Of a DNA stretch of 64,000 nt, positions 2,848-10,097 are shown piece by piece; the stretch's first letter is position 1, and every line of letters begins with the position of its first letter. The notes below the pieces were generated by a model. It had not been told where the DNA came from and ran no database searches. It worked only from the letters and a program-made list of their open reading frames with translations. Source of the stretch: Flavobacteriales bacterium (GTDB lineage: Bacteria > Bacteroidota > Bacteroidia > Flavobacteriales_D > Sanyastnellaceae). The translations under genes were made by a program, and so were the position numbers. Location: assembly GCA_019694805.1 (NCBI GenBank), contig JAIBBG010000001.1, positions 186,001-250,000 of the forward strand. The letters run 5' to 3'.

Positions 2848-5265
2848 TCATTCATACCTCAGTGCTTTCACCGGATCCTTCAATGCTGTTTGCATGGCGT
2901 GCACACTCACAGTAATCATGGTGATGAGGATCGCAAACAAAGCAGCAAGAAGGAAGTACATCCATTTCACTTCTTCATGATAGGCAAAATTCTGTAACCA
3001 GTGTGTCACACCATACCAAGCAAGTGGAAAAGCCAACACAATAGAAACAATGACTAACAACAAAAAATCTCTATTGAGTAATGTCAGGATATTTTTTACC
3101 GATGCACCCATCACCTTTCGAATTCCAATTTCCTTCGTTCTTTGCTGTGTAGTAAAGGCACTAAGTCCATATAAACCAAGACAACACAAGAGGATAGCAA
3201 GTACAGCAAAGTACAAAGAGATACTGAACATTTTTTCTTCAGAAGCATAGAGCTTTTTGAATTGATCATCCATAAAACTATAATCAAGTTCTTTATTTGG
3301 AAATGATTTTGTCCACGCGTCCTCAATAGCCGTCAGAACTTGCGCATTGTTTGTGCCATCTGTTTCAACCATAAGATTACCAGCTACACCAGCTGGATTT
3401 TGTTGCCCAATAATCAATGGCTCAATAGGAAAATGAAGTGATGTAAAATGGAAATCTGAAATTACACCGATAACATCTGCCTGTTGCGGTGGAGCATTGA
3501 CGTCGCCGGGAATGGTTATTTTTTCTGCCAATGGATTCGTCCAACCGCATGACTTCACTACAGCTTCATTCACCAATACAACACCAAAGGGTCTTGCGGC
3601 GTCCTCGGCAGTGAACAAGCGACCTTCTTTCAACTTCATTTGCGACATCGTTAAATAATTCTCATCTGTAAAAAGTACAGGAAATGGTTTATCCTGAGGG
3701 CCTGATGTCGTATTCACATTCAACACGAATCTCGATGTTTGACGGCCTGGAATGTGTGCACTACGTGCAACGCTTACAATTCCCGGTGTAGACATCAATT
3801 CATTCTTCAGCGCTGTCAACGAAGCCCTTTGGGTTGAGTCAGCCTGTGGTAGAGTCAGAACAATCATGTTGTCTTTCTTAAATCCAAGGTCCTTATTGCG
3901 CATAAAATGCAATTGACTCAATACTGATAGGGTTGCAATGATCATGGCAATTGACAATGTGAATTGCGCTGTAACCAAGACCCTGCGCATCAAACCACTT
4001 TTACCGAGCGCTGTTCTCGCTTCGCGAAAAATGGATGTTATAGGTAATGCTGAAATATAAAATGCAGGATAGCTTCCGGCAAAAAGACCAATAAACAAGA
4101 CCATCATCAATGCCATTCCTAAAAAGTAAGGCGATATCAAAACGGCACTTGTAATTTCTTTCCCTGTGATATAATTAAAGAATGGCATCAACAATTCTAC
4201 CATGGCAAATGCAAGAAGGCAAGAAATCAATGACATCAATAGCGCTTCACCAATGAATTGCACAATGAGTTGTTTCCTGCTTGCACCCGCAACTTTCCGC
4301 ATAGCCACCTCTCTGGCCCTCTTTGATGCCGCGGCAGTTGAGAGATTCACAAAATTGATGCACGCAATGCTCAATGTCAGGATAGCAACAATGGAAAATA
4401 TCATGACATAATTTTTGTTGCCCTTTTTAGGTGTATCATAAATGAGGTAATTGTTGAAGTGTACATCCCTCAAAGGTTCGGCATGCATTTCAATGGTTCC
4501 ATTGAAACCCTCAGTCTGCCATTGAGGAAGCTGGTAGGTGCTTACCACCTGATCCAACTTCCCCTGGAATTCATCTGCCATGCCTTCCCGCGGCAGTACG
4601 ATGTAACTATAACTATTGTTGTTTCCCCAGTTGGCAGAAAACTGGTTGATAAAAGCGGTATCCAGAGAGTGCATGGAGGCCACCATTCCAAGCACCATAT
4701 GTGTGCGTATTTCGGTATCATCAAAAACTCCTGTGACCTTGTAAACATCCGGCTCCCATGTTAAGGTCTTTCCCACCGGATCAACATCCCCGAAAATTCG
4801 TTTCGATTCAGCCAATGAAAGCACCATGCTTTTTGGTTCTTTCAACGATTGCGTTGGATCACCATAGACAAACGGAAAATCGAATACCTGAAAAAAATTA
4901 GAGTCAGCAAAATTCACTTCCTCAACTTGAAAGACCTGTTCATCTCTTTTGATGAACTGTTGACCATTCGGCAAAAGACGTGTTCCAGATTCAACTTCTG
5001 CATAGTCCTGAAGTATCATGGGGACAGCCGGAAATGGTGTAATACCAAATTTGTCATCAACATCATCGAATTTGTAAAACGATTGCAACCGATAAATCCG
5101 ATCTGCTTTGCTGAATGAACGATCGTAACTCAATTCATCCGAAACATAGAGGTAGATAAACAAACAAGATGCAATACCCGCGGACAAACCAAAGATATTT
5201 AACATGGTGCTGAGTCGATTCCTGCCGAAATTTCTCAGTGCAGATAACAAATAGTTCCTGATCAT
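2848..5265 (-). CDS. ABC transporter permease, tandem MacB/FtsX type
   Basis: 805-residue inner-membrane protein. An N-terminal cytoplasmic stretch and TM helix (about residues 20-42) are followed by a MacB-type periplasmic core domain (about 45-280) and an FtsX-like block of three helices (about 285-410). A second copy of the same plan follows: a helix near 430, a second periplasmic domain, and three helices at about 680-800 with 'TKEIGIRKVMGAS'. The first FtsX block contains the matching 'AREVAMRKVAGAS'. Two MacB_PCD plus two FtsX units in one chain is the usual form of large Bacteroidota efflux permeases. It is third in an operon with the ATPase (5275-5970) and adaptor (5975-7225), 9 nt after the ATPase start. 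Substrate unknown; such systems export antimicrobials, peptides or lipids. Confidence 0.92.
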   Translation of the reverse strand: MIRNYLLSALRNFGRNRLSTMLNIFGLSAGIASCLFIYLYVSDELSYDRSFSKADRIYRLQSFYKFDDVDDKFGITPFPAVPMILQDYAEVESGTRLLPNGQQFIKRDEQVFQVEEVNFADSNFFQVFDFPFVYGDPTQSLKEPKSMVLSLAESKRIFGDVDPVGKTLTWEPDVYKVTGVFDDTEIRTHMVLGMVASMHSLDTAFINQFSANWGNNNSYSYIVLPREGMADEFQGKLDQVVSTYQLPQWQTEGFNGTIEMHAEPLRDVHFNNYLIYDTPKKGNKNYVMIFSIVAILTLSIACINFVNLSTAAASKRAREVAMRKVAGASRKQLIVQFIGEALLMSLISCLLAFAMVELLMPFFNYITGKEITSAVLISPYFLGMALMMVLFIGLFAGSYPAFYISALPITSIFREARTALGKSGLMRRVLVTAQFTLSIAMIIATLSVLSQLHFMRNKDLGFKKDNMIVLTLPQADSTQRASLTALKNELMSTPGIVSVARSAHIPGRQTSRFVLNVNTTSGPQDKPFPVLFTDENYLTMSQMKLKEGRLFTAEDAARPFGVVLVNEAVVKSCGWTNPLAEKITIPGDVNAPPQQADVIGVISDFHFTSLHFPIEPLIIGQQNPAGVAGNLMVETDGTNNAQVLTAIEDAWTKSFPNKELDYSFMDDQFKKLYASEEKMFSISLYFAVLAILLCCLGLYGLSAFTTQQRTKEIGIRKVMGASVKNILTLLNRDFLLLVIVSIVLAFPLAWYGVTHWLQNFAYHEEVKWMYFLLAALFAILITMITVSVHAMQTALKDPVKALRYE

Positions 5266-5274
5266 GGTGCCCGA

Positions 5275-5970
5275 TTAAACCAATATGGTTTGTGATATGT
5301 TGTTGTGCTGACTTAAAATTTGTCCATCTAACAATCTGATGATACGATGCGCATATTGTGCATCATGTGCAGAGTGGGTCACCATGATTACAGTGGTTCC
5401 TGAATTGTTCAACGCCGTTAAAAGGGTCATCACCTCATTGCCATTTACACTATCCAAATTCCCTGTAGGTTCATCAGCGAGAATAATCAGTGGTTGATGC
5501 ACTACAGCCCTTGCTACCGCCACTCGTTGTTGTTGACCACCGGAGAGTTGCTGTGGTAAGTGATTTCGACGATGGGAAATATTCATACGTTCCAATGCAA
5601 AATCTACCATCTTCTTTCTCTCCGCACTTTTGAAACCAGAATACACCAAAGGCAACTCAACATTTTCAAAAACGGTGAGTTCATCTATGAGATTAAAACT
5701 CTGAAATACAAAACCGATGTTCCGCTTTCTGATTTCAGCACGTTTCCGCTCATTCAATTTTGACACTTCCTGGTCATTGATAAAATAACTTCCGGAAGTT
5801 GGAGAATCGAGCATGCCAAGAATATTGAGTAATGTCGATTTGCCGCAACCAGATGGGCCCATCATGGCGACGAACTCACCCTTTTGCACTTCCATACTCA
5901 CATCGTTAAGTGCCGTTGTTTCCACCTCATCGGTAGTGTAAACTTTTGAAATTGAAATTGTTTTTATCAT
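5275..5970 (-). CDS. ABC transporter ATP-binding protein (LolD/MacB family)
   Basis: ATPase subunit of about 231 residues. It shows Walker A (GPSGCGKST), signature LSGGQQQR, Walker B (LIILADEPTGNLD) and the H-loop (VTHSAHDAQYA), in the order and spacing of the LolD/MacB/YtrE group that energises FtsX-like permeases. The frame is open six codons further, but that upstream codon is TTG (5988) inside the adaptor gene. I chose the ATG at 5970 (MIKTISISKVY), which leaves 4 nt after the adaptor stop. It works with the tandem permease next door; together with the adaptor it should form a tripartite-type efflux pump across the periplasm. Confidence 0.95.
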   Translation of the reverse strand: MIKTISISKVYTTDEVETTALNDVSMEVQKGEFVAMMGPSGCGKSTLLNILGMLDSPTSGSYFINDQEVSKLNERKRAEIRKRNIGFVFQSFNLIDELTVFENVELPLVYSGFKSAERKKMVDFALERMNISHRRNHLPQQLSGGQQQRVAVARAVVHQPLIILADEPTGNLDSVNGNEVMTLLTALNNSGTTVIMVTHSAHDAQYAHRIIRLLDGQILSQHNNISQTILV

Positions 5971-5974
5971 GGTA

Positions 5975-7225
5975 TTATTGGGATTCAATTGAGATTACTT
6001 CAGCATCACCAAACAGATCATATCTTGATGTGATCACTTGATCACCTGATTGGAGTCCATCCAACACTTCATAATAGTCCGCATTTTGACGACCAAGTTT
6101 GATTTCTCTTCGCACAGCTTTTCCGTTTTCCTGTAAAATGAAAATCCAATTGCCACCAGTTTGCTGAAAATATGCTCCTCTTGGTACCTGCAATGCTTCT
6201 CCTTTTTCTCCTAAAGCAAGTGTCAATTGTAAGGTTTGTCCACGCCGAATTGAAGCAGGCTTTTCTTTCACAAAAACCAAATCAATATTGAACTGCCCGT
6301 TGGTTACTTCTGGATAAACTTTACTCACCACCAAAGGAAATTCTAGATTGTCTACTTTAATCACAGCTGAGAGTCCCGGAATGACACGAGACACATAATG
6401 TTCTGCCACTGATGAACGAATTTTAAGTTCAGACATATCGTCAATTTGACCAATGCGAGAACCCGGAGATATGCTCTGTCCCAATTCTACCTGGAGTTGC
6501 GATAGAATACCTGATATGGGAGCTTTCACCACAAGATTCTCTACAGTTTCATCTAAAAAATGTAGGTTCCTATGTACCAATGAAAGTGAAGATTCAATTT
6601 GACCGGTTTGATTCAGCCGAAACAATGAATCCATCTTCAACTTGTCCAGGTTCAACTGTCTGCTTTTTTTCAAAAAGGTCAAGCGTTCCTTCGACTTTTC
6701 ATATTCCACTTTTGAAATGGCGCTATCTTGAAAGAGCTTTTCGTTCATCATAAACTCCCGATTCGCATCCTGAATATCATAGTCGAGCTTCAATAATTCA
6801 GCGCGTAGGGTTGACGTCTGCTGATCCATTTGTATCCGCGAATTGCGAAGATTGTTTTGCTGATCGAGAAGTTGTGATTCACGTTGAATAGCATCCATCT
6901 GAAACTGCTGGTTGGTCAATCGAATGATTGGAACACCCATTTCAATTTCACGTCCATCTTCAACAAATATTTCTTCTACCTTACCTCCTTCTACAACGTC
7001 TATGTAAATAGATTTAATGGGTTCGACAACCCCATTGAGCGGAATGTATTCCTGAAACACATCATACTTGACGCTTTCGATTGTAAGCCTTTCTGCGCTC
7101 ACATTATATTCCTTTTCACTAAATCCGTAAAACATCAGTGCAGCCGATGTAACAAGGATGAATGCTATTCCAGCCTTGATCCACCGGCTACGCCATGATG
7201 TTTTTTTTGCAATTATTCTATCCAT
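5975..7225 (-). CDS. HlyD/MacA-type efflux periplasmic adaptor
   Basis: 416-residue membrane-fusion protein and first gene of the efflux operon. One N-terminal TM helix (about 15-35) anchors it. Residues about 60-100 form the first half of the lipoyl/barrel-sandwich domain (PLNGVVEPIKSIYIDVVEGG). Residues 105-230 form a long coiled-coil hairpin rich in Gln, Leu and Lys. The second sandwich half (VKAPISGILSQLQVELGQ) and beta-barrel follow, with a MacA-like C-terminal domain (LQSGDQVITSRYDLFGD). It would link the inner-membrane permease to a TolC-like outer-membrane channel, not encoded here. The gene is divergent from the sigma-54-type response regulator, and the shared intergenic region carries a twin palindrome that probably controls it. 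Confidence 0.93.
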   Translation of the reverse strand: MDRIIAKKTSWRSRWIKAGIAFILVTSAALMFYGFSEKEYNVSAERLTIESVKYDVFQEYIPLNGVVEPIKSIYIDVVEGGKVEEIFVEDGREIEMGVPIIRLTNQQFQMDAIQRESQLLDQQNNLRNSRIQMDQQTSTLRAELLKLDYDIQDANREFMMNEKLFQDSAISKVEYEKSKERLTFLKKSRQLNLDKLKMDSLFRLNQTGQIESSLSLVHRNLHFLDETVENLVVKAPISGILSQLQVELGQSISPGSRIGQIDDMSELKIRSSVAEHYVSRVIPGLSAVIKVDNLEFPLVVSKVYPEVTNGQFNIDLVFVKEKPASIRRGQTLQLTLALGEKGEALQVPRGAYFQQTGGNWIFILQENGKAVRREIKLGRQNADYYEVLDGLQSGDQVITSRYDLFGDAEVISIESQ

Positions 7226-7245
7226 GAGAAAATTCGATTCCTATA

Positions 7246-7327: not shown

Positions 7328-7365
7328 TGTCCACCAGCGGACAAGTTAGTGTCCGAAATCGGACA
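7328..7365. promoter_or_regulatory. Twin 16-bp palindromes, likely NtrC-type enhancer
   Basis: Two inverted repeats of identical length: TGTCC-N6-GGACA at 7328-7343 and TGTCCGAAATCGGACA at 7350-7365. Their centres are 22 bp apart (two helical turns), so two regulator dimers would sit on the same face. They are about 70-100 bp upstream of the candidate -24 element of the efflux operon and about 85-120 bp from the regulator start. This is the layout of an upstream activating sequence for a sigma-54 activator. Confidence 0.7.
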
Positions 7366-7450
7366 TTGTGAAACATTATGATAAACGGTGATGACACTGG
7401 CTGAACAGAAAACTAATTTCGTTTTATAGAACGAGATCAGTGAATCATTT

Positions 7451-8788
7451 GTGAAAACAAAATCGAGCATATTGGTTGTAGAAGATCAGGAAGAGATTCA
7501 GCTCAGTGCTAAATTCCTCCTGAGAAAAATTTTCGATCATGTGGATGTTTTCGATCATCCGGGTACTGCTGCCCATGCTTTGAAAGCCAACCACTACGAC
7601 GTCATTCTTCTGGATATGAATTTCAGTAGTGGGATGACAAACGGAGCTGAGGGCTTGCATTGGCTCAAAAAATTTCAATCCATTAAACCGAATGCTGTTA
7701 TCGTACTCATGACAGCATATGCCGAAGTAGAATTGGCGATTCGGGCTATCAAATCGGGAGCATTCGACTTCATCATCAAACCGTGGGATAATCAAAGATT
7801 CACTGAGATCATCCTGGAAGCCAAAAAATTTGGTATGTGTAAATCAGGAATTTTATTGGAATCAGAAGCCGGTAAAAAAATGATCGGTTCTTCTCATATC
7901 ATCCATGAAATACTGCGCATCGCTGAAAAAGTGGCTCTGACCGAAGCCAATGTTCTTATCCTCGGTGAAAATGGGACAGGTAAAGACTTGTTGGCTGATT
8001 ATATACACCAATGTTCAATGCGAAGGGACAAACCGCTCATCAAAGTGGATTTAGGTTCCATTACCGAAAATTTATTTGAAAGTGAATTGTTCGGTCATAA
8101 AAAAGGCGCTTTCACAGATGCACGTGAAGACAAGACGGGAAGAATAGAATTGGCCAATGGTGGCACGCTGTTTCTCGATGAAATCGGCAACCTGAATTTG
8201 CCTTTACAAAGCAAATTATTGAGCGCATTACAAAATAGCAGTATCAATAAGGTGGGTAGCTCAAAATCCATTCATGTAGATTTCAGGTTGATCAGCGCAA
8301 CCAATGCCGACCTTAACCACATGATTCAAGCCAACGCATTCAGAAAGGACCTCTATTACCGAATCAATACGGTGGAACTTTGTCTGCCACCCTTGCGAGA
8401 CAGAGGCCGAGATGCCATTGAAATTGCGAATCATTTCATCATAACGTATTGTAATAAGTACAACAAACCACCGAAGACACTCAGTGAGGAAACTGAACAG
8501 TCCATCCTGCGTTATGCATGGCCAGGCAATATCAGAGAATTACAACACTCCATTGAACGCGCAGTTATCCTTTCAGAAGGAAATACCATCAAACCTGAAG
8601 ACCTCACTGTGGCTCAGGCGGGTGGTTACAATGACACAAAAGAACATCTCATGAACCTCGAAGAGATAGAATTGAATACGATTCGTAAAGCGCTGACCAA
8701 ACACGGCGGGGTCATTAGCCATGCAGCCAATGAACTTGGGCTTACCAGAGCTTCTCTTTATAGAAGGCTTGAAAAATATGGCCTATAG
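7451..8788 (+). CDS. Sigma-54-dependent response regulator (NtrC family)
   Basis: 445 residues in three domains. The receiver domain (1-120) has phosphoacceptor Asp55 (VILLDM) and the conserved Lys in FIIKPWD. The AAA+ domain (about 140-375) has Walker A GENGTGKD, Walker B GGTLFLDEIGN and an R-finger region. The C-terminal Fis-type helix-turn-helix (about 405-445) reads AANELGLTRASLYRRL. The sigma-54-contacting GAFTGA loop reads GAFTDA. Start is GTG; an in-frame stop (7427-7429) lies eight codons upstream with no ATG between. The kinase gene overlaps its end by 11 nt, so the two form one unit. Most likely targets are the palindromes at 7328-7365 and hence the efflux operon. Confidence 0.93.
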   Translation: MKTKSSILVVEDQEEIQLSAKFLLRKIFDHVDVFDHPGTAAHALKANHYDVILLDMNFSSGMTNGAEGLHWLKKFQSIKPNAVIVLMTAYAEVELAIRAIKSGAFDFIIKPWDNQRFTEIILEAKKFGMCKSGILLESEAGKKMIGSSHIIHEILRIAEKVALTEANVLILGENGTGKDLLADYIHQCSMRRDKPLIKVDLGSITENLFESELFGHKKGAFTDAREDKTGRIELANGGTLFLDEIGNLNLPLQSKLLSALQNSSINKVGSSKSIHVDFRLISATNADLNHMIQANAFRKDLYYRINTVELCLPPLRDRGRDAIEIANHFIITYCNKYNKPPKTLSEETEQSILRYAWPGNIRELQHSIERAVILSEGNTIKPEDLTVAQAGGYNDTKEHLMNLEEIELNTIRKALTKHGGVISHAANELGLTRASLYRRLEKYGL

Positions 8789-10097
8789 CAAGTTCAGAAT
8801 TTGGCTTCTTGTCCGCATCTGGACGTTGATTATCACGAGCATTGCCCTGACGATTTTCTTTTATCACTTTCAACTACATTACACCACACTGGTAGTGCTC
8901 CTGATTCTTGTCTTGCAAATTTTTGAATTGACAAGATACATCACCAAAACACATCAAGAACTTGACCGCGCTTTAAAATCTATTCTTGTTGATGATTTCA
9001 GTACAAAATTCAGTAGGTCAAAAACCAAACAACATGCATTGCTCGGCTGGAGCAACGCCATTTTGACTAAACTCACAGAAATGAAAGCACAACACCAGCT
9101 TCGAACAGAATTGCTCAGCAATATCGTCGATAGCATGCCGACTGGTGTAATTTGTTTACAAGGTCAACACGACATCGTATTGACAAATAAAAAAGCGCTC
9201 GAAATTGCGGATGCACCTATGCTTCAAAATTTCAATCAATTGGCCCGAATAAATCCTGTGCTTTGTGAAATTCTTCAGTCACTACAAACGGGTCAGGAAA
9301 AAAAAATAGTGGTGAGAAATGGCCAACATGATCAGGAATACATGGTAGACAGACGGGATTTGGAAGTAGCGGGTGATGAGTACAGAATTTTTGTATTCTC
9401 CATTGCAGGTTCAGATTTCGATCAAAGAGAAACTGAATCATTCAAAAATTTCATGCGTGTACTCCACCATGAAATTGTCAATAGCATCACACCGATCATC
9501 TCGCTTTCCGACTCTGTCTACACCACTTTAAAAGAATCTAAAACAGCCCTGACAAATGAAGAAGTGCTTGAAGCTTGTTCAGCTATTTTAAAAAGAAGCA
9601 AAGGGTTGTTGAAATTCTCAACCGGATATCGTGCACTCACTGATATACCTTCTACAACAACATCACTCATTCAACCAGCTGAGGTGATAGAAAGAACAAT
9701 CAAATTATTTGGTGAAGTGAGAGAAAAACAAATCAGATGCATCATCGAAACTAGATCGTTCATCAGAGCGGATGAAAGTCAAATAGAACAGGTGATGATC
9801 AACCTGATCAAAAACGCCATAGAGTCCATACCAGAATTTCGCGAACCAGAAATTCAATTGCTCATTTCAGAACAAGCACATGAATTGCGCATTTCGGTGC
9901 ATGATAATGGTATGGGAATGACCGATGAAGTTTTGGCCAATATTTATGTGCCGTATTTCACAACTAAAAAAGAAGGACAAGGGATTGGCATGAGCCTGTG
10001 CAGACAATTCGTTTTAGCCAATAAAGGAAAGATATACATAGCCTCAACTCCAGGAGATGGGACAACAGTTCAACTTGTTTTCCCTATCGCATCATGA
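8778..10097 (+). CDS. Sensor histidine kinase (NtrY/NtrB-like)
   Basis: 439 residues when started at the ATG at 8778 (MAYSKFRIWLL), which overlaps the regulator stop; an upstream start at 8721 would lie inside the regulator frame and is less likely. Two close TM helices fall at about 8-50. A PAS-like cytoplasmic region (about 105-200, MPTGVICLQGQHDIVLTNKK) follows. The H-box is LHHEIVNSITP with phosphoacceptor His231. The HATPase domain has an N-box (NLIKNAIESI), G1 (DNGMGM), F-box (YFTTKKEGQG) and G2 (GIGMSLCRQF). There is almost no periplasmic domain, so the signal is probably sensed in the membrane or cytoplasm, as in intramembrane kinases paired with efflux pumps. Partner: the regulator encoded upstream. 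Confidence 0.92.
   Translation: MAYSKFRIWLLVRIWTLIITSIALTIFFYHFQLHYTTLVVLLILVLQIFELTRYITKTHQELDRALKSILVDDFSTKFSRSKTKQHALLGWSNAILTKLTEMKAQHQLRTELLSNIVDSMPTGVICLQGQHDIVLTNKKALEIADAPMLQNFNQLARINPVLCEILQSLQTGQEKKIVVRNGQHDQEYMVDRRDLEVAGDEYRIFVFSIAGSDFDQRETESFKNFMRVLHHEIVNSITPIISLSDSVYTTLKESKTALTNEEVLEACSAILKRSKGLLKFSTGYRALTDIPSTTTSLIQPAEVIERTIKLFGEVREKQIRCIIETRSFIRADESQIEQVMINLIKNAIESIPEFREPEIQLLISEQAHELRISVHDNGMGMTDEVLANIYVPYFTTKKEGQGIGMSLCRQFVLANKGKIYIASTPGDGTTVQLVFPIAS

Follow-up and report, generated by a model that had tools for sequence, protein, structure and literature searches.

The 64-kb stretch of DNA analyzed here (hereafter the window) carries two 16-bp inverted repeats in the intergenic region between an ABC efflux operon and the divergent genes of an NtrC-type activator and its kinase, and the question raised by this locus is what these palindromes do. 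An initial annotation had read them as a likely enhancer through which the neighboring regulator controls the efflux genes. To our knowledge, sigma-54 regulation in Bacteroidota has been little studied. Based on comparisons with orthologous loci and with genomes from across the class, we consider it very probable that the NtrC-type regulator encoded next to the palindrome pair uses it as its upstream activating sequence, and that the pair drives the efflux operon via sigma-54.

Genes flanking the palindromes

Pfam searches bore out the gene contents that had been assigned to the two sides of the intergenic region, an ABC efflux operon on one and an NtrC-type activator with its kinase on the other (Table 1). 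The HlyD adaptor, the ABC ATPase and the MacB_PCD/FtsX permease together make up the full gene set of a MacAB-type exporter. The regulator matched PF00158 (Sigma54_activat, E 3.4e-65), PF00072 (E 2e-18) and PF02954 (HTH_8, E 2e-13), and with its activator domains intact it has the features of an NtrC-type sigma-54 enhancer-binding response regulator. The activator loop of this protein reads GAFTDA, not GAFTGA; GAFTDA is the norm for the family, being found in 72 of the 99 orthologues, compared with GAFTGA in only one of them. The threonine is the key residue of the GAFTGA loop and is present in GAFTDA too.

Table 1. Positions in the window of the palindromes, the predicted promoter and the flanking genes.
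Feature	Position	Strand	Basis and remarks
Permease (MacB_PCD and FtsX, two stretches of each)	2848-5265	minus	Pfam
MacB/LolD-type ABC ATPase	5275-5988	minus	Pfam; listed start TTG, true start possibly a few codons later
HlyD/MacA-type periplasmic adaptor	5975-7225	minus	Pfam; first gene of the efflux operon
Predicted sigma-54 promoter of the efflux operon, TGGCATTGGAGTTGT (-24 GG, -12 GT)	7261-7247	minus	Sequence; TGGCAY conservation in relatives
Palindrome 1, TGTCCACCAGCGGACA	7328-7343		Efflux-proximal copy; predicted site for one regulator dimer; paired layout kept at orthologous loci
Palindrome 2, TGTCCGAAATCGGACA	7350-7365		Predicted site for the second dimer, 22 bp from palindrome 1
Response regulator of the NtrC type, comprising a receiver, an AAA+ sigma-54 activator domain (loop GAFTDA) and a Fis-type HTH	7451-8788	plus	Pfam; predicted to bind the palindromes
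Sensor histidine kinase	8721-10097	plus	Pfam; translation more probably begins at an internal ATG (8778, MAYSKF) that overlaps the stop of the regulator gene

The host genome has one RpoN gene (PF04552, E 1.3e-52) and, counting this regulator, five strong matches to Sigma54_activat in addition to weaker ones. No such palindrome pair was found near four other NtrC-type activators of the host genome or the more distant L014 (best 17 of 24 matches, versus 23 of 24), which indicates that the pair is not a generic enhancer.

The palindrome pair in the window and the host genome

The coordinates, architecture and spacing of the two palindromes were all as originally described: TGTCCACCAGCGGACA and TGTCCGAAATCGGACA are inverted repeats of 16 bp with a gap of 6 bp between them. 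The form in which they had been given, TGTCC-N6-GGACA, occurs twice in the window, once in each palindrome, compared with 0.07 occurrences expected, and at least two such sites were present in one of 100 shuffles of the window. Four sites of this form were identified in the host genome (3.85 Mb, 106 contigs), and the only paired ones are the two in the window. The other two are single sites, one within coding sequence and one intergenic without a partner, and the idea that sites elsewhere in the genome represent a wider regulon was unsupported. No second genome match to the whole pair with its 6-bp gap was found at up to two mismatches; at three mismatches there was one further match, equal to the number obtained with a reversed-pattern control. 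Matches to a single site at up to one mismatch were somewhat above the reversed control (28 versus 18).

Conservation of the paired operator at orthologous loci

The comparison was based on 99 loci of the class that encode an orthologue of the regulator, 61 of which (window included) have a divergent adaptor, ATPase or permease gene related to that of the window within 800 bp. At most of the orthologous loci the regulator gene is followed by a kinase gene. These loci came from a genome search, used in place of a locus search on genome contigs with a single protein, which had returned two remote homologues only. The distribution of the regulator is patchy: 10 of the 299 genomes examined from the order encode an orthologue at E ≤ 1e-95, as do 63 of the 395 sampled from the class at E ≤ 1e-105. 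At E ≤ 1e-90 the regulator was absent from seven drafts of the same genus (G001-G007), which suggests its loss or its lateral gain, although these drafts (about 2.5 Mb, versus 3.85 Mb here) are incomplete.

As a letter-blind count of palindrome pairs was too noisy for spacing, k-mer enrichment and motif scoring were used instead. When the 60 divergent intergenic regions other than that of the window were compared with first-order Markov shuffles, the three most enriched 6-mers were TGTCCG (28 regions versus 3.3 expected), TGGCAC (36 versus 6.5) and TGTTCG (34 versus 6.2), that is, two variants of the half-site and the -24 element of sigma-54 promoters. The 16-bp palindrome formed by TGTYCG with CGRACA 10 bp on occurred 15 times in these regions and 0.0 times in the shuffles, and tandem TGTYCG arms 22 bp apart (nine occurrences) represented the second-commonest spacing. 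Examples of orthologous operators are TGTTCGAAAACGAACAGTTAACGTTCGAAAACGAACG at L026 and TGTCCGAAATCGGACAAATTAGTGTCCGAGGTTGAACA at L066/L126. The enrichment of both TGTCCG and TGTTCG indicates that TGTCC is one form of TGTYC; hence the TGTCC core of the initial annotation is present as described, but the orthologous loci support TGTYCG-N4-CGRACA as the better core. The pair in the window is the all-C version of this motif, with TGTCCA as the left arm of its first palindrome.

With pairs scored at 18 or more of 24 matches and a spacing of 20-23 bp, paired TGTYCG-N4-CGRACA was found upstream of 41 of 77 regulators with an LYRR recognition helix (53%), compared with ~0% in shuffles and 5% in a coding control of the same loci. 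The initial annotation had named a lack of such conservation next to orthologous regulator/efflux pairs as grounds for refuting its proposal, and the proposal passed this test. Regulators with other recognition helices (LYRK, LYNK) had the pair in 4 of 20 cases. Under this strict scoring about half of the orthologous loci had no strong pair, some of them having one good site, a 17-bp variant like TGTTCGGTTTTGATACA, or none. The TGTYCG pair is thus common but not universal, given that about half of the LYRR loci are without a strong one. T and C arms are mixed within loci, and inspection by eye revealed no clear rule by which the recognition helix would simply dictate T or C in the operator.

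The asymmetric 17-bp form of the operator, in which the second arm is TGTATC, recurs upstream of the regulator at L006, L007, L008, L041, L047 and L053. GATACA was enriched in the k-mer test of the 60 regions (24 versus 6.7 expected). At L008 (1100-1400), short palindromes of the form GTGCCAGAGGCACGA are repeated in a long intergenic region.

A predicted sigma-54 promoter in phase with the half-sites

Sigma-54 promoters have the consensus TGGCAC-N5-TTGC, with the spacing GG-N10-GC. The -24/-12-like element that had been proposed between the palindromes and the operon, GG-N10-GT, was found there on the minus strand as TGGCATTGGAGTTGT; its -12 half is imperfect, having GT for GC. The -24 element is strongly conserved in relatives and the -12 element is looser. 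Among the 61 divergent regions, TGGCAC/T faced the exporter in 58 and the regulator in 10. Alignment of 56 TGGCAY elements showed T at position 11 in 95% of them, a position that played no part in their selection, and TTG started most often at positions 10-11, as predicted for a sigma-54 -12 element. Judged from the element in the window, transcription would start near 7236, 11 bp ahead of the adaptor start codon, and the centres of the palindromes would then be near -100 and -122.

The half-site arms lie upstream of TGGCA at distances that cluster at ~58-60, 68-71, 79-82, 88-91 and 100-104 bp, and the nearest arm in the window, at 82 bp, is inside one of these clusters. The Rayleigh statistic at 10.5 bp, calculated from a single distance for each of 45 loci, was R 0.77 with a nominal p of ~2e-12, a value that is too small because the loci are related, and that was obtained with several periods tried. 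Five helically spaced clusters over many families would be hard to explain otherwise than by phasing of the half-sites with the promoter.

Class-wide search for the paired operator

The pattern TGTYCG-N4-CGRACA-N6-TGTYCG-N4-CGRACA was searched for in 395 class genomes at up to two mismatches, with the reversed pattern as a control. This search identified 12 sites, versus none for the reversed pattern. Of the 12, 11 face the start codon of a MacA-type adaptor or a MacB/FtsX permease from a position 82-127 bp upstream. Six of these 11 sites (window included) adjoin the regulator. The regulator-linked matches are partly circular, because the motif was defined on the orthologues, and the remaining matches are independent.

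The paired site at L133 is directly upstream of an adaptor gene and 1.4 kb from the regulator, and that at L128 is between the ATPase and permease genes of a regulator-linked operon. At L125, L129 and L130 (1501-1538), the paired site precedes an FtsX/MacB permease gene and the surrounding 1.5 kb contain no regulator gene; at L125, TGGCACGTATCTTTC is located between the paired site and the gene. The exporters at these three loci are possible targets in trans. At L127 (1501-1538), a paired site was observed upstream of the gene for an uncharacterized small protein with a signal-like start, and TGGCACAGATATTGT, a -24/-12 element, is downstream of the site. This small, exported-looking protein is a possible further target.

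Proposed mechanism and alternative explanations

The reading of the palindromes as an enhancer of efflux genes under the control of this regulator draws support from the conservation of the paired sites, the exporter-facing orientation of TGGCAY (58/61), the exporter bias of the class-wide matches and the presence of RpoN. In addition, comparison of sequences indicated that, for the sites in the window, paired dyads at two-turn spacing upstream of a -24/-12 element are conserved. The rarity of the pair, the phasing of half-sites with the -24 element, the higher frequency of pairs with LYRR regulators and the intact activator domains also speak for this reading. Against it stand the many orthologous loci with no strong pair, the imperfect -12 half in the window and the GAFTDA loop, although this loop is usual in the family. 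We propose that two regulator dimers would bind, one to each 16-bp palindrome, two helical turns apart and on the same face of the DNA, at about -100 and -122 relative to the start predicted for the divergent efflux operon. Phosphorylation of the regulator by the downstream kinase would lead to assembly of an AAA+ oligomer, which would contact RNA polymerase-sigma-54 at TGGCAT-N5-TTGT (7261-7247, minus strand) and so turn on the genes for the adaptor (MacA type), the ABC ATPase and the permease (FtsX/MacB type). In this scheme we infer the binding of the regulator, its phosphorylation and the activity of the promoter. The substrate of the pump is likely to be a toxic envelope-active compound.

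Perfect 16-bp dyads are typical for many dimeric repressors, and the location of the sites in a divergent intergenic region would also suit binding by an unrelated repressor, resembling TetR, Fur or LexA, that acts on the efflux operon or on the regulator gene. We regard such a repressor as very unlikely since the sites are not accompanied by any other regulator gene, and the motif recurs, paired two turns apart, at exporter operons and, across many families, next to regulators of this family. Moreover, the sigma-54 element is 60-100 bp from the sites and phased with them, a distance too great for simple repression of that promoter. The conserved letters of the TGTYCG arms and the conserved, fixed helical spacing also argue against RNA or DNA hairpins (a terminator or attenuator) in place of protein sites, to which we assign practically no chance. 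A consensus scan does call a terminator-like stem with a T-rich tail at 7343-7328 on the minus strand; however, a mean of 0.4 such calls is expected by chance, the second palindrome is without a T tract, and the palindromes would be outside the exporter mRNA because they are upstream of its predicted start.

The palindromes could also serve mainly in autoregulation of the regulator-kinase genes from a plus-strand promoter, with the exporter controlled otherwise. The sites in the window end 85 bp ahead of the regulator start, and TAATTTCG near 7414 resembles, by eye, a Bacteroidota -7 box. That this is their main role seems most improbable when set against the rarity of regulator-facing TGGCAY (10/61 regions), the pairs before exporter permeases with no regulator nearby (L125, L129 and L130), the pair directly before the adaptor at 1.4 kb from the regulator (L133), and the pair between ATPase and permease (L128). 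Autoregulation and control of the exporter by the same sites can coexist.

Relationship to known systems

An upstream activating sequence for sigma-54-dependent expression of the exporter, the reading we prefer, would have a general precedent in enhancer-binding proteins of the NtrC/ZraR type. These likewise have a receiver, an AAA+ sigma-54 activator domain, a Fis-type HTH and a partner kinase, and act from dyads arranged in tandem at a spacing of about two turns, some 100 bp upstream, on a -24/-12 promoter. Unlike those systems, the one described here is from Bacteroidota and has the operator TGTYCG-N4-CGRACA, a GAFTDA loop and, as its predicted target, a MacA/FtsX-type exporter.

Hydropathy, a crude method, indicated that the kinase has, near its N terminus, two abutting hydrophobic transmembrane helices with almost no periplasmic loop, and by the same crude method an abutting pair is common to most related kinases with a readable frame. 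The kinase is thus predicted, at the resolution of hydropathy, to be without an external sensor domain, as is typical of BceRS-BceAB-type systems. Tied as it is to an FtsX-type ABC exporter, it is a possible intramembrane-sensing kinase. In BceRS-BceAB and related Firmicutes modules, too, a two-component system is genetically linked with an ABC transporter of the FtsX type, and the kinase has two transmembrane helices and hardly any external loop. However, the BceRS-BceAB regulator is of the OmpR type, whereas that described here is of the NtrC type and associated with sigma-54, and here there is also an adaptor protein and a MacB-type permease with two periplasmic domains. Signaling between transporter and kinase is a feature of BceRS-BceAB; the kinase described here, predicted to be without an external domain, makes it conceivable that its signal, too, comes from the transporter. 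We also speculate on a class-wide circuit, a Gram-negative counterpart of BceRS-BceAB, in which such a kinase would read the state of the FtsX/MacB exporter and the sigma-54 activator with its TGTYCG code would control several exporters; this we put forward tentatively and consider rather unlikely.

A 2025 survey found predicted sigma-54 promoters to be enriched in Bacteroidia ahead of genes for FtsX-like ABC permeases (COG0577) and presents this as the first evidence of sigma-54 control of FtsX-like permeases (PMC12316311). The parts of it consulted treat promoters only, without mention of UAS or upstream activating sites, and they name neither an operator nor a neighboring regulator. Sigma-54 promoters have also been mapped in Flavobacterium psychrophilum, where three activators were noted (PMC9723704). 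Neither the TGTYCG operator nor its association with regulators of this family was found described in the literature searched, most subscription journals and RegPrecise being beyond reach. The type of mechanism is already known; the operator, its phasing and the regulon are new.

With an operator, its spacing and its phasing to the promoter defined, the regulon of a common two-component system can be listed directly from sequence, and the control of exporter operons becomes testable by reporter. The finding suggests regulatory targets in trans, and the recurrence of the operator at related pump operons across a Bacteroidota class makes a widespread, undescribed circuit testable.
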